A program made the translations under genes and the position numbers. From positions 1 through 20,434 of the IMG/VR virus record IMGVR_UViG_3300004369_000195: a DNA stretch of 20,434 bases; one strand, written 5' to 3'. Source of the DNA: a virus. Shown in pieces: positions 1-20,434 of this stretch; position 1 is the stretch's first letter; every line of letters begins with the position of its first letter. The notes under the pieces were generated by a model. That model was not told where the DNA came from, ran no database searches, and saw only the letters and a list, made by a program, of their open reading frames with translations.

Positions 1-147
1 TGTATCGTTTACGCCATAGAAACTTGTACCGTCACCAACAAATTCATTTCCTGGTGTTAAACCTGAGTCTGTGTAAACTGTTTTTCCAAGCTGGAACTGA
101 TCATACGAAACATATATGGTATTAACATAAGACGTATCTGCGCAAGC
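1..147 (-). repeat. Partial copy of shared VGT-type tail module
   Basis: Residues 693-741 of the Ig-like fibre include QLGKTVYTDSGLTPGNEFVG. This resembles the middle of the two modules at the end of the muzzle protein, where GLQVGTQMYNSLT and GINVGTKIWNLN occupy the same place. The rest of this copy would lie beyond the left edge. Similarity is at protein level and was judged by eye. Confidence 0.45.
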
Positions 148-2223
148 GTTAGCAGCAGAAGTGTTAGCTGCTGTTAATCCAAATGGAGATGGAACAAAAG
201 CTTGACAGTTAGCGTCAGGACAACATAAGCGTAATATATTCCAAGCTGTTCCAGATGGTCCAGTTACTCTTAAACTAGCATTAGGATTAGCTGTATAATC
301 TGCAGCTGTATACTCCCACCATATTACTTGTTGATAAGTAACAGATCCAACTGTCATGCTTGTTATATCAAAGTCTGTAGCTAAATTAAACTCAGTCTCT
401 CTAGTTGGTACAGTACCACTTGATGTTCCTATAAATTGATCTATATTGTTAACCTCTGTTGAAGTTGGTAATTGGTTAGCGGGTTCTGTTCCAAAGTTGT
501 TTTCAAAAGGTCCAAAATTATCAGCAGCTTTCATAGAGCTTGTTGCTTTCTTAACAAAGAAATTAGAACCTGGAGTACCGTGAATAATTTCAAATTTATC
601 TTCTAAGCTCTGCGCATTAACTAAGAATGCTATTAATCCACCAGCTGGGTTTAGATCAAGCATGTGATCTGTAACGCCGGTAGAACCATTATTAGTTTGT
701 GTAGCACAAGCGATAGATGGTATTTCTTGTATAAGTTTGTCTAAATCAAAAGTAAATGTAGTGTCTTGATCGCTAATATACTCTATGTTTATAGAAGCCT
801 GTAAATTTATAGTGTTAGCGTCTTCAATTATTAAATTAAATCCATTTAACACGGCATTATTTCCATTATTAGACCAAGCTTCTATATTTGTACCACTTAG
901 AACTGTTATATTAGGCGAAACAGATATCTGTGTTGGTGAATCAATAGACGTTATTTCATAATCAAAAACACCTCTACCAATATTACTATATATATTAAAT
1001 TCGTGATCAGTAGTTAAGTTAGATGTATCATCTACTGTTAATGTGGAAGAATTACTAGCGTTTGCTGTAACTTCAAAACCAACACTACGAGAATTTTCTA
1101 AAATATTCGTAACACTATAAGTGTCTTTAGGCGATATTACGTTTGCGGAAGTTAAAGTCCAATCTATTTCAACTACTTTAGGATTTTTAGTTAAATCACT
1201 AAAAGCAGCCCCTGACACAACAACATCATTAAATCCAGTTATACCACTAGTTGTAGATGCTGTAAATGTAAGTTTAGGTAGGTCAACACTTTGAACAACG
1301 TTAACAGATGTTGGTTGAGAAAAATCTGGATGTAAATCTCCTGATATAGTTAAAGTGTAGGTTTCAGACTGATAGGTTAACCCATAAATATTTGGAAAAT
1401 CTATTTCAACTTCATATATACCATTAGCTGGAATTGTTACATTATTAGCAGGTGTAAAATTGCTACCATTTAAGGCTGTAACATTTAAACTAAATACAGC
1501 CCCTTCTTGACCAAATACACGATAAGTTAAAGTAGCACCGCCTCCAGATACAAATGAATGAGCAAATCTATAACTTGTTACGTATTGTGGTTTAACAAAT
1601 ATTTCTTGAGCTGAAATTTGATAAATAGCTAATTTATCACCAGCTACACTTTGATTAGGGTATGTGTAATAAGCTGAATAAGTTATACTTGTTAGATTTC
1701 CATCTATATCATACGTTGGAGCTTGTTCTATACTATAATCGTTTTGATTGCCAATAGCGACTTGCATGCCTGTTGAAGTTAGTTTATAACCAGCGGCTGC
1801 CGTGTATGTTTTAGTAAGCATTAATTCAGTTTCTCCAAAAGCTCCTGAATCAGAATAAGATCCAGAAGTATCTCCTGTAACATTTGATCCAACGTTAGCA
1901 ATAAATGTTCCTGCTATAGTAATTTCAGCGATGTCAGCAGATCCTATAACACATAAAGGTATTGTAACATTAGCGGACGGCATAGTTACAGTAGGCAAAA
2001 AAGTAATTGTACATATAACATTAGTTCCGCTTTGAGTAAATGTTACACTTTCAACATATGAATTAGAAAACGAAGGATCTAAACTAAAGTCAGATGCCGT
2101 TGCAGTATACCCAGATAGCGGGGATATTGTTATTGTAGCATTTGTAACTTGATCATTTATTACACTACCTTCTTGTACAGTAAATACAGCGTTAGAAAAA
2201 CTATAATTATTTATTTCAGGCAT
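1..2223 (-). CDS. Ig-like tail fibre / appendage protein, 3' end outside window
   Basis: This reading frame is open for 741 codons from an ATG at 2223 to the left edge with no stop, so the C-terminus is missing. The start lies 9 bases after the stop of the muzzle gene and is preceded by an A/T-rich leader. The product is Ser/Thr/Asn-rich and almost entirely beta in character. It appears built of successive Ig-like sandwiches: near residues 8-110 (TISPLSGYTATASDF at 32-46), 209-297 and 298-395, with further beta segments at 395-500. There is no signal peptide or membrane segment. Cysteines cluster late (C667, C668, C673, C694). From about residue 694 the sequence (QLGKTVYTDS) resembles the module repeated at the end of the neighbouring muzzle protein. 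Its place directly after the muzzle suggests a tail fibre or receptor-contacting appendage. That role is inferred from context and fold pattern, and no enzymatic motif was recognised. Confidence 0.85.
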   Translation of the reverse strand, partial: MPEINNYSFSNAVFTVQEGSVINDQVTNATITISPLSGYTATASDFSLDPSFSNSYVESVTFTQSGTNVICTITFLPTVTMPSANVTIPLCVIGSADIAEITIAGTFIANVGSNVTGDTSGSYSDSGAFGETELMLTKTYTAAAGYKLTSTGMQVAIGNQNDYSIEQAPTYDIDGNLTSITYSAYYTYPNQSVAGDKLAIYQISAQEIFVKPQYVTSYRFAHSFVSGGGATLTYRVFGQEGAVFSLNVTALNGSNFTPANNVTIPANGIYEVEIDFPNIYGLTYQSETYTLTISGDLHPDFSQPTSVNVVQSVDLPKLTFTASTTSGITGFNDVVVSGAAFSDLTKNPKVVEIDWTLTSANVISPKDTYSVTNILENSRSVGFEVTANASNSSTLTVDDTSNLTTDHEFNIYSNIGRGVFDYEITSIDSPTQISVSPNITVLSGTNIEAWSNNGNNAVLNGFNLIIEDANTINLQASINIEYISDQDTTFTFDLDKLIQEIPSIACATQTNNGSTGVTDHMLDLNPAGGLIAFLVNAQSLEDKFEIIHGTPGSNFFVKKATSSMKAADNFGPFENNFGTEPANQLPTSTEVNNIDQFIGTSSGTVPTRETEFNLATDFDITSMTVGSVTYQQVIWWEYTAADYTANPNASLRVTGPSGTAWNILRLCCPDANCQAFVPSPFGLTAANTSAANACADTSYVNTIYVSYDQFQLGKTVYTDSGLTPGNEFVGDGTSFYGVNDT

Positions 2224-2232
2224 ACTATTATA

Positions 2233-5200
2233 TTAAGGAGTTGGTGTGACGGAATTATATTGCACTATTTGAGTAATAATTCCATCTATTAATTCTATAA
2301 ATTTATATTCATTAGGAATCGGTGTTGGATCATTAGGATCTAACGCTAAATTTGGATCAACAGTAGAAGAACCTGTCCATAACATTAACGAATCAGTTTG
2401 TAGATGGTTACAAGGATCTAACACGGAAGCATTAAGATTCCATATCTTAGTACCTACATTAATTCCATTAGTAATATTATATCTAAATTGTACATTAGGG
2501 TTACCAAGTGGGCCTGCATTAGGATAATTATTGAAGTTTTGTTCTATTGCATACCTTGCTTGCCCCAAAGTAAAACCATTTGTTGTTAAATAGCCACTCC
2601 AATTAAGTCCTCCAAGTTCCAAACTATCGTCCCATCTTCTAAACCAATAAAAATAAATTGGCGTATCTGGCAAGCATTCTTCTTCACATGCCGCTAATGT
2701 ATTATATTGCGTCCAAGAAGCTATTTGCCCATTGCTATCTAATATCATTACGTAATATGTAGACGGAACAGCAGTAGTATTGTTAGCGTCTAATCCAGCG
2801 TGGCTAACTGTTAAATCAGATAACTCTTCGCCGTTACCAACAAATAAGTAAGCTCCAGCGCTTGCAATAGGTTCATTGGTCAAACTATTATACATTTGTG
2901 TACCAACTTGTAGACCATCACTAAACACATAAGAAAATGCAGTTCCATTGTTCACTATTAAACTATAGTTTAAATTAAACAAATCATAAAGAGCTTCAAT
3001 AGCACATTTAACATCTTGAGCTGTTGTTTGGCTTGTAATATCTAAATGGTAAATCGGATCATTTTTTATATTATCCCATGTATTAATAAAAAACTGCGTT
3101 GTATCTGGAGTAATTGCACCACTTCCGCTGCAATTTTCATCAATAGTTACGGTTAACGTGTATTCTTGAGGGTCACACTCAACTATAACTGGTGGACCAA
3201 TGCCTTCACCTATAAACTCACAATCATTAAATTGTTGTAGTCCTTTTATGTAATTAAACCATTTGCCTTCTTTCTTTTCAAACTCTTTAACTTCACCTCC
3301 TTCAAGGTCTGTTTTAATGTAGTTTACGTACCAACCTGGTTGCTTTTGTTCTACAAAATTTGGAGTTATCTTATTAAAATTAATTTCAGCAATAGAGTAT
3401 GGTTTAGAATTTTGTTCTAGTTTATATTGTAATCTTCTACTTTGCGTTCCAGTATAGTTCAATGTACTAAATCCTTTTACAGATTGAGGCATTTCATTAA
3501 AAATAACGTTAAACGCACTATCGTATTGTATACCGTAAAAATTATTAGCTAAAATGTTTAACCCATGCTCCCAAATTCTACCGTGTTTAAAAGTAAAATA
3601 TCTATTATTTAAACTAAGACCACTTTCTTGTATAAATGATTTTCTTGAAGTCCAACCATCAACTGACTCTTTAAATGACACAGTAGTTTGTGTTATTGGA
3701 TCGCTAGTATCTGTGTTGCAGTCAGGGTTTAATTGATAATCTTGACTTTCGCTAAATGTGTTTCTCCAAGGTTGACTAAGATTATCTAAAGTTACATTGT
3801 ATATATCTTTGTCGTCATCATAACTACCTACTATTTTGGTAGAAACTCTTAAGTTATCAGCAAAGAAATCTGACATACCTTTTTCTGCAATGTTAGTTAT
3901 ACCGTCTCTAGACAGTCTTATAACAGCACCTCTGTTTTTATCTGTGAAGTAAGATCTAAACGCGTATTGAGCAAATGACTCAGGGTTTTTAGATATGCCA
4001 AACTCACCAACATAAGGAACTGCTTGACCTAAAACAGCTGTATTTCCAGTTAAGTTAACATTACCATCAGCATTATATAAAGCGTCTTTATTAGCTAATA
4101 TTCTCAAGCATTTGTCTTCACACAGTGCTATAAGATCAGTGTCTCTAGCATGAAGCTTTTGGATTGTGCCGTATATTGGATTTAAATCTTTTGTTATAGG
4201 TAAAGCTTGTATAAACTGATTAAGTCTATTTACACCGGATGTAGAGTTGTATATTTGTGAAAATATAAAACCACTACCTCTTCTTTCTTGCGCGTAAGGC
4301 TCATCTAGAACAGTGGACACTTTAGGTCCTTTATCTATATATGGCGCGTTAAAATCATCTCTAATTCTATTAGACTCAACGCCTTGACCATAAGTATAAC
4401 AATTAAACCAATTTAAAGTGTGAGGGATGTTAAAGTTAGATATAGGTAAAGCGTTTGATGCTTCGTAGTATAAATCTAAATCCACAGCTTCTTTAGGTTC
4501 TGTCTCAAATATAGCTGGATTACTAGATGTTAAAACTTTATTACCTTCTGATGTAATTTCTTCAACAATTTGAATACTAGGTAGTGTAGAACATAGAGTT
4601 GACCAGTCGCCTTCATTAGGCATCCACGTCTCTTGTATAGGCCTGTCTAAGGTTAAAACATAGACATTTCTCCAGTTATCGCCGCCATCTTTATGATTAC
4701 ATTCTGTACCCCAGTTTTCATTAACAATAAAACCTCTTGGTGTCAGTCTAGTTTGCGCTTGCACGATAGTATAAACATCAGATAATTTTTCATTAAATTC
4801 AGCGTCAATAGCGTTATTCGCAAATCTAATTTTAATACCTACATTTAATTGGCCATTTGGACCACCAATTTGGAATCTTGGACCAGCATGACCCCCTATT
4901 TGGCCTATGTGATCAAATTGACCTGCTCCTATATACATAATTCCAAATTGAGATTTATCATTACACGGTGGTGCAACACCTAAACCTTGCTCCCAGTGCA
5001 TATCATAACCATACTGCGGCGCTCCACCGCCGAGCCAACCCATTAGATGCCAAGCCTCTGCTTCTCCATCGCAAGTACCACCGTCGTGGTCGTCCCATCC
5101 TTTATCAGCGTAATACCAACCATCTATATTTTTTGCCGTGTCTGGAAAAAGTATTTGAGCTATGCTACTAGCGCCTCCTCCACTGGCTATGCAGTTTTTA

Positions 5201-19386: not shown

Positions 19387-20434
19387 TTATTTGTCTGGGT
19401 TAAATTTATATATTGCGTCTCCTATTGTTATTTCTAGTTGGTTTGTTTTTTCATTAAATGCTATAGATTTTACGTTATCTAAATGACTGTTTCCATTTGT
19501 ACCGTTTTTTCCGTCAGCTCCTGCTGGCCCTGTTGCTCCGGTTGCTCCTTGCGGACCTTGAGGTCCAGGCGTCAATGATACGTCTTCAAGTTCTTTTTCA
19601 AGTTCAGCTACACGCTTAACTAATAAGTCGATATAGTTAACACCTTTAACGCCATCAGGTCCAGTGTGAACTAGCTCAGGGTAATCATTTTCTATATCCT
19701 CAGCTATTACACCATAACGCTTTTTAGATAAACCATCAATAGAGCTTTTGTATGTATACTCTTTAAACGGTATTGATGTAGCTTTTCTTTTATCAATATC
19801 ATTTATGTTTTCTTTTTGATCTCTTTGAGATGTTTGTATTAAACTTAAACATCTTAAATCACCTGTAAATCTACCTGTTCCATATACGTCAAGAGTGTAT
19901 GCTGGTACTGAACCACCTGTGGCTATTCCCACGTTACCACCTCTTGGATTTATTAATAAGTCAAAAGCTAGTAGAGCACCGTCAGATCTTCCTTGTTGTA
20001 TTACACCTCGCCCTGATGTCAAAGTACTAAATAAAGTACCGTACGCTGAGCCACCTATTTGAGCCGCTGAAGCAGCTGCGCCTAGAGCTGGTACACTTCC
20101 CGTTACACCTTGTGCGTGGAGCTTAGATCTTGGACTAGTCGTTCCAATACCAACGTTTCCACTTTCTCTAAATGTAACTAATTTATTTCGGCTTCTATCA
20201 ACAATATCTAAGTTTATATTAACATTGTCGTATTCTAAACCTAGTCTTAAAGCTCCTGCTGTATTTTGAAAATCAATAGATCTGTTATCTCCATTGTTTG
20301 ACGCTTCTAAAACTAAACCACTAACAGAGTCAGATATACCATCTATATGTAATTTACCATCTGGACTAGTAGTTCCAACACCAAGGTTGCCGGATATTAT
20401 TGCACTACCATTTACGTGAAGTTTTTCGGAAGGA
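19387..20434 (-). CDS. Tail fibre with S74 intramolecular chaperone and collagen-like end (5' end outside)
   Basis: The frame is open to the right edge, so the N-terminus is missing; 348 residues are visible. A TTG at 20022 is not the start, because coding continues through fibre repeats upstream of it. Visible parts in order: GNxGxGTTSP...KLHxxG fibre repeats (from the edge to about residue 185); an S74 chaperone domain opening SQRDQKENI (Ser202, Lys207, spaced five as in the SDxxxK motif of the family); GVIAEDIENDYPELV; and the coiled-coil helix ending in ELEKELEDV. A collagen-like Gly-X-Y run and about 33 further residues follow. S74 domains assist trimer folding of fibres and then cut themselves off. 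The Asp normally after the catalytic Ser is Gln here. The fibre probably mediates host binding. Confidence 0.88.
   Translation of the reverse strand, partial: PSEKLHVNGSAIISGNLGVGTTSPDGKLHIDGISDSVSGLVLEASNNGDNRSIDFQNTAGALRLGLEYDNVNINLDIVDRSRNKLVTFRESGNVGIGTTSPRSKLHAQGVTGSVPALGAAASAAQIGGSAYGTLFSTLTSGRGVIQQGRSDGALLAFDLLINPRGGNVGIATGGSVPAYTLDVYGTGRFTGDLRCLSLIQTSQRDQKENINDIDKRKATSIPFKEYTYKSSIDGLSKKRYGVIAEDIENDYPELVHTGPDGVKGVNYIDLLVKRVAELEKELEDVSLTPGPQGPQGATGATGPAGADGKNGTNGNSHLDNVKSIAFNEKTNQLEITIGDAIYKFNPDK
19489..19566 (-). repeat. Collagen-like Gly-X-Y run
   Basis: The run encodes GPQGPQGATGATGPAGADGK and continues to GTNGN, about eight and a half Gly-X-Y triplets. It is visibly more G+C-rich than the flanks. 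It should form a short triple helix in the trimeric fibre product. Confidence 0.85.
19879..19938 (-). repeat. Fibre repeat unit, diverged copy
   Basis: It encodes GNVGIATGGSVPAYTLDVYG, a diverged unit of the GNVGIGTTSP...KLHxxG fibre repeat, just before the S74 domain. Confidence 0.65.
20107..20160 (-). repeat. Fibre repeat unit
   Basis: It encodes GNVGIGTTSPRSKLHAQG, 18 residues, a canonical phage tail-fibre head repeat. Confidence 0.8.
20338..20391 (-). repeat. Fibre repeat unit
   Basis: It encodes GNLGVGTTSPDGKLHIDG, 18 residues. The end of another unit (PSEKLHVNG) is visible at 20407-20433, so the array continues beyond the right edge. Confidence 0.8.

Follow-up and report, generated by a model that had tools for sequence, protein, structure and literature searches.

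The closest described counterpart of the protein studied here is gp44 of phage phiCrAss001, a tail-tip protein of variable length that belongs by Pfam crAss_MUZ_C to the same family as the muzzle protein encoded in a 20,434-base virus fragment (IMG/VR record IMGVR_UViG_3300004369_000195), the whole of which is called the window below. In the available part of the phiCrAss001 account, the length variation of the muzzle is ascribed to insertions of crass and IG2 domains with no mention of a C-terminal tandem module, and the fibres are described as docking on hubs at rings R1 and R2 (PMC10172136). Modular adhesins built of immunoglobulin (Ig)-like, BACON and PKD domains offer a second likeness, since they place surface domains in varied combinations on gut phages, crAss-like phages included, and the phages carrying them are predicted to infect Bacteroidota, according to the accessible portion of that source (PMC13370021). 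These adhesins differ from the system described here in belonging to other Pfam families, and the word "muzzle" is absent from the main text of that paper. The PARCEL/DUF285 surface repeats, in what is accessible of their description (PMC2996958), are an unrelated repeat that does not occur in the window but follows the module in one relative. Among the titles and abstract openings listed by searches of the open-licence literature, none described muzzles with arrays of C-terminal modules. To our knowledge, the means by which crAss-like phages choose their host are largely open. Here, we report that the muzzle of the window ends in two tandem copies of an apparently undescribed domain that is exchanged between related phages, and we consider it rather probable that the muzzle C terminus is a variable adhesion slot reshuffled by recombination.

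A tandem module at the C terminus of the muzzle protein

By sequence matches, the window protein is a crassvirus muzzle protein: residues 1416-1516 match Pfam PF25729 (crAss_MUZ_C) at E 1.9e-6 and 28.6 bits against a cut-off of 27, and the protein matches phrog_14478 at E 2.4e-134, which together place it with the crass-like viruses; from the Pfam match, phrog_14478 is taken to be the muzzle family. A tblastn search of cultured phages with this protein returned 87 records (68 Flavobacterium, 15 Cellulophaga, 2 Tenacibaculum, 1 Maribacter and 1 without a name), all below 60% identity and none covering 80% of the muzzle. Among the matches listed (the best 40 of the 87), the best rows cover 49% of the protein and stop near residue 1450, short of the modules. 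A profile of 16 muzzles matched no PDB chain at E 1, the presence of the gp44 chain in that set being unchecked.

The muzzle ends in two tandem modules of ~140 residues each (residues 1561-1699 and 1706-1848). A first-pass annotation, made by a model from the letters of the window, had proposed that two copies of about 105 residues close the protein; the two copies were borne out, and the 105 residues turned out to be the last part of the ~140-residue unit. A hidden Markov model (HMM) of 23 first copies, containing no second copy, matched the second copy of the window at E 2.9e-14 over model positions 44-141, and alignment of first with second copies by hhalign gave a probability of 99.3% (E 1.2e-20). 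An iterated HMM search settled at 150 domain hits (copy 1 of the window at E 9.6e-46, copy 2 at E 2.3e-30), all of them in open reading frames (ORFs) that also matched the muzzle body; the 122 sequences searched overlap in part, several loci coming from the same contigs. Across 20 whole records of 26-67 kb, 27 module hits fell in 16 records, again all in muzzle ORFs as judged by their open frames, including the broken muzzle of locus L051 (L-numbers denote loci of relatives). Muzzle-type modules were thus restricted to the muzzle in the records searched. At L051:11344-14522 the muzzle is split over several ORFs with the modules in the last, which reflects either a broken gene or an assembly error.

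In 20 aligned copies, P121 and G133 were invariant and 11 further positions were at least 90% conserved. A different set, A7, comprised 18 of the 27 two-module tails (26 plus that of the window). Scanned alone to E 1, residues 1518-1852 of the window muzzle had no Pfam match and reached only 0.035 in NCBIfam (below cut-off) and 0.52 in PHROGs, while the three-module tail of L028 reached 0.0074 in Pfam (below cut-off) and 0.13 in PHROGs with no NCBIfam match. The muzzle modules showed no Pfam Ig or BACON match, and tblastn with one of them (145 amino acids, L034) found nothing at E 0.1 among 50,697 cultured-phage records. AlphaFold2 modelled the muzzle tail with a predicted local distance difference test (pLDDT) of 72 overall; block means in module 1 were 81-95 with one block at 65, and module 2 scored 37-78 across its first two thirds and 68-87 thereafter. 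In PDB structure comparisons, VIA second looks reached Z 3.2 and 3.1 at best, and we found no solved relative of the domain family that the muzzle module adds. Carriage of the module by bacteria was considered and set aside: no case was confirmed when genome contigs were scanned with patterns of the muzzle module (A5) and of the fibre module (A3), the patterns being short and the result no proof of absence.

The copy number proposed by the first-pass annotation as a quantity to survey ranged from 0 to 3 across relatives. A whole-muzzle scan yielded 62 loci, 18 of them incomplete or broken; the 44 complete muzzles reduced to 39 distinct ones (window excluded, some nearly identical), which carried 0, 1, 2 or 3 modules in 16, 5, 17 and 1 cases. 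One of the six patterns used in that scan lies within the module; a second scan used the module pattern, so these counts were taken from the whole-muzzle scan alone. When only distinct module-bearing muzzles were considered (44, with that of L015 cut), 14 had one module, 29 had two and 1 had three.

Modules are exchanged between phages

Exchange of modules was evident from comparison of muzzle bodies with their C-terminal ends. The bodies of L025, L028 and L032 are 93-95% identical, their first modules are only 33-41% identical, and their copy numbers are 1, 3 and 1. The reverse pattern was found for L003 and L024, with bodies 58% identical and last modules 95% identical, and for L008 and L028, with bodies at 59% and second modules at 87%, the shared unit being the last module in one phage and the middle module in the other. 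The window muzzle and that of L002 are 80% identical in the body and 44% and 16% identical in the two modules. At the DNA level, steps in identity lie near the module edges. Between L003 and L024, identity per 90-nt window is 93-97% in the six windows covering positions -420 to +120 relative to the muzzle stop, against 48-66% in the six preceding windows and 52-80% in the four following. Between L032 and L025, a trough of 44-64% spans -420 to +30 nt around the stop, with 74% in the preceding window and 80-98% further out. For the window/L002 and L032/L028 pairs, the trough continues into the fibre gene and takes in its first 60-120 residues. These edges fit recombination in conserved flanks, and homologous recombination would be the likely exchange route. 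In the approximately unbiased (AU) test, made on 23 of the 44 distinct module-bearing muzzles, module-1 data rejected the body clades L025+L028+L032 (p-AU 1e-48) and window+L002 (p-AU 2.6e-5).

Rapid point divergence under selection, in a C terminus inherited vertically with duplication and loss and little exchange, would account for the generally lower identity of modules than of bodies (first modules have a median identity of 38% across 346 pairs whose bodies are 55-70% identical). It is contradicted by the modules that are far more alike than their bodies (those of L003/L024 and L008/L028), by the sharp DNA edges and by the rejection of the two body clades, and we regard it as highly improbable. 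Variation driven by a diversity-generating retroelement also appears unlikely, as the 20 records, which are possibly fragments, contained no match to the reverse transcriptase family PF00078 and the differences span whole modules. For the muzzle, the earlier proposal of a swappable module transferred by recombination is well supported.

A proposed variable adhesion slot

The C-terminal slot of the muzzle holds other content in some relatives. In L105, the single module precedes an extended repeat array with matches to TIGR02167 (PARCEL, E 4.4e-36) and DUF285 (E 5.3e-153); the sequences of L106 and L107 are almost identical to it across this region. In L052, whose muzzle lacks modules, the slot is occupied by a Big_9 domain (E 3.3e-5). 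About 340 residues follow the last module in L007, L013 and L045; the extension of L045 has a weak Vps10-like match (E 2e-4, below the Pfam cut-off), and that of L007 has no match at 0.01. Judged from the letters, the tail encoded at L105:1357-8196 also contains a PKD-looking stretch, as do those of L106 and L107. The muzzles of L113, L114 and L119 end earlier, 72 or 227 residues past the module and still inside this PKD/DUF285-like region, at what may be true stops or broken frames.

We propose that the conserved muzzle body, a hexameric tail tip by homology, would be inherited separately from its C-terminal array, which recombination between phages may replace, lengthen or shorten after residue ~1550; the conserved end of the body and the start of the next gene would be the likely anchors. 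Six or more modules would then be displayed per virion. Their likeliest role would be contact with the surface of the bacterial host, and a swap would then change what the phage sticks to and could affect host range; such receptor binding, one of the two functions suggested by the first-pass annotation, is plausible because known surface-repeat or Ig domains occur at this end of a few other muzzles.

Several observations weigh against an adhesion slot. Modules are absent from 16 of the 39 muzzles, and the family membership of the module gives no hint of binding, as its region has no significant Pfam, NCBIfam or PHROG match. In phiCrAss001 it is the crass domain at the tip that is said to touch the cell, according to the available part of that account (PMC10172136); given this tip contact, and length variation there arising from crass and IG2 domains, the C terminus may sit away from the tip. 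As to the exchange itself, both clades in the AU test were picked after the identities had been seen and long branches are present, and among the 7 pairs whose bodies share at least 90% identity, first modules are 87-99% identical in 4 and below 50% in 3, the latter all coming from the single trio L025/L028/L032.

An alternative is that the modules serve as a structural spacer or assembly domain and are exchanged neutrally, the region being tolerant of any content. Complete muzzles vary widely in length, from 1394 to 2344 amino acids (the longest, L060, being perhaps outside the family), which, with the frequent lack of modules, agrees with a spacer. We nevertheless consider a spacer unlikely: the module core is conserved despite low overall identity, and surface-repeat and Ig-type domains occupy the slot elsewhere.

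The other function named by the first-pass annotation, fibre docking, would make the modules an adaptor that binds the N terminus of the neighbouring protein and holds the fibre on the muzzle, the two ends being exchanged together. The close spacing of the two genes in the window (Table 1) and the extension of the exchanged block into the fibre gene in two pairs accord with docking. So does covariation: given the body, the last module and the fibre N terminus had a partial Spearman correlation of 0.23 (0 of 500 permutations), and the first module and the fibre N terminus one of 0.09 (39 of 500), in a pairwise set of 39 of the 44 muzzles, no fibre having been found for L008, L015, L097, L113 and L120. 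Plain DNA linkage, however, would be expected to produce such covariation too, and most of all for the module closest to the fibre gene. In L054:9001-15078, muzzle and fibre are fused into one ORF of 2025 amino acids on a single contig with no N in the ORF, 86.7% identical to the L050 muzzle over residues 1-1493 and 63% identical to the L050 fibre over 1490-2020. A single polypeptide would suit a docking function, but the fusion has no muzzle module.

Moreover, fibre N termini remain similar where modules do not. They are 90% identical between L025 and L032, whose modules are 35-37% identical; 80% between L034 and L010 (first module 59%, last 26%); and 88% between L112 and L114, which carry 2 modules and 1 (65% identity between the first modules, 18% between the last). 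Of the 16 module-less muzzles, 14 still precede the same fibre N-terminal family, their fibres matching at E 5.6e-52 to 2.9e-116 (eight) and 3e-25 to 1.8e-31 (six); in the remaining two, the fibre is fused (L054) or not found (L060). This test used a profile of 26 fibres from module-bearing phages only; a first fibre N-terminal profile had omitted L051, L060 and ORFs of 450 amino acids or fewer, and contained fibres that it then found. These results disfavour a fibre-docking unit, which we hold to be quite unlikely, and adhesion to the host surface appears to be the better reading.

If the muzzle end is indeed an exchangeable specificity slot, a small, defined part of a single gene could serve to read, and to test, host range in this group; L025 and L032 already offer a natural comparison, as their differences near the muzzle end lie mainly in this part.

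A probable remote relative of the module in the fibre gene

The first-pass annotation had also seen the beginning of a third copy in the gene next to the muzzle. The fibre-like protein of the window extends beyond the point at which the fibre of L002, a close relative, stops (RLCCPDANC...), into a module cut by the edge. A complete fibre module closes the L013 fibre, in which residues 692-767 match phrog_21885 at E 2.2e-9; the cut module of the window has no PHROG match to 0.01. phrog_21885 thus covers the fibre module but not the muzzle modules, which do not match it to E 1. By HMM, the fibre module was found in 5 of 54 distinct ORFs with the fibre N terminus, a set that includes cut ORFs and the L054 fusion; the fibre of L018 is split over two ORFs, the second carrying the module. 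A likeness outside this set is gp62 of Cellulophaga phage phi18:1, a hypothetical protein adjoining a tail protein confirmed by mass spectrometry, which matches the fibre module at 42.6% over 47 amino acids (E 1e-4). Two further scans for relatives of the fibre module returned only records already met, and tblastn with one L124 fibre module found nothing at E 0.01 among cultured phages.

Most sequence comparisons separated the fibre module from those of the muzzle. It lacks the VGTxxYN core and reads LGKTVYTD instead. An HMM of the five fibre modules missed the muzzle modules, its best match in a muzzle ORF being at E 5.7 outside the modules and that inside at E 8.7, and the muzzle-module HMMs likewise did not reach the fibre module. 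Narrow fibre profiles gave hhalign probabilities of 0.1-3.2% against the muzzle modules, and one such comparison scored 17.0 against 16.9 for the best of 200 shuffles and 16.4 for the reversed profile. Each of the L012, L035 and L039 fibres closes with two related copies, which hhalign aligned to the fibre module at 87% (E 4e-6) and to the muzzle module at 17.7% (E 1.4e-3). A fibre profile widened with these ends reached 44% (E 2.3e-4, score 25.4) against the muzzle modules, while the controls scored at most 17.4 (250 column shuffles), 17.6 (27 decoy windows) and 16.0 (reversed); the added ends were chosen by eye after the narrow comparisons had failed, and the E-value should not be read as the outcome of a planned test.

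In the AlphaFold2 models of the fibre module (pLDDT 94.8) and of the muzzle tail, the elements follow the same order: a strand is succeeded by a helix, a second strand, a helical turn of three residues, short bridges and further strands, the muzzle model having extra short elements. Six targets were common to the listed top 50 BFVD matches of both models, ranking within the first eleven for the muzzle model and the first 24 for the fibre model. The muzzle-model matches were weak, with 1 of 282 at E 0.001 or lower and template modelling (TM) scores by query length of at most 0.26, and Foldseek searches of the PDB with the fibre model gave a best E of 2.5.

The fibre module is therefore probably a remote relative of the muzzle modules and not another copy of the same module. 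What remains of the proposed third copy is the borderline wide-profile similarity, the like order of elements and the shared BFVD targets, set against the HMMs, the narrow profiles and the core motif. Of the checks named in the first-pass annotation, profile comparison united the muzzle copies and left the fibre module apart except in the widened form, and structure prediction recovered a common element order alongside low TM-scores for the muzzle model. We saw no exchange of modules between muzzle and fibre: muzzle-type modules occurred only in muzzle ORFs, and the fibre module forms a separate, remote branch. A broader proposition, which we advance more tentatively, is that a new fold family of small adhesion modules may serve two neighbouring tail proteins of crAss-like phages while the muzzle end acts as a host-specificity slot whose cassettes are exchanged between phages singly and independently of the fibre.

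Genomic context of the muzzle gene

The window edge at the fibre gene is the end of the record. On the minus strand, the genes run in the order terminase (PHROG match E 1.2e-165), portal (E 3.6e-156), several virion proteins, muzzle, and the fibre-like gene that runs off the end (Table 1). The fibre-like protein of the window matched nothing in Pfam up to E 1 and nothing in PHROGs up to E 0.01; the same fibre N-terminal family adjoins the muzzle in relatives.

Table 1. Coordinates of the muzzle gene, its modules and the adjoining fibre-like gene in the window
Feature	Position	Strand	Basis or remark
crAss-like muzzle protein P0002, 1852 aa	2233..7791	minus	ORF; PHROG 14478; Pfam PF25729
crAss_MUZ_C, last conserved muzzle domain, residues 1416-1516	3244..3546	minus	Pfam; variable extension begins soon after
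Module copy 1, residues 1561-1699	2695..3111	minus	HMM match E 9.6e-46; AlphaFold2 block pLDDT means
Module copy 2, residues 1706-1848	2248..2676	minus	E 2.9e-14 (first-copy profile); E 2.3e-30 (iterated profile)
9-base gap between muzzle and fibre genes	2224..2232	no strand	Exchanged block crosses into fibre gene in some relative pairs
Fibre-like protein of the adjoining gene, 741 N-terminal aa, truncated at the end of the record	1..2223	minus	ORF open at 3' end
Fibre module, residues 684-741, incomplete, probable remote cousin of muzzle modules	1..174	minus	HMM E 9.6e-23 (5-sequence profile including window copy)

Two further observations concern other parts of the window. Fibre residues 301-480 (window 784-1323) form a second variable patch, 45-57% identical between the window and L002, with 82% identity before it and 78-85% after it. 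Upstream of the terminase, an open-ended ORF at window 19387-20433 weakly matches many PHROGs of the tail-fibre and collagen-like kinds.

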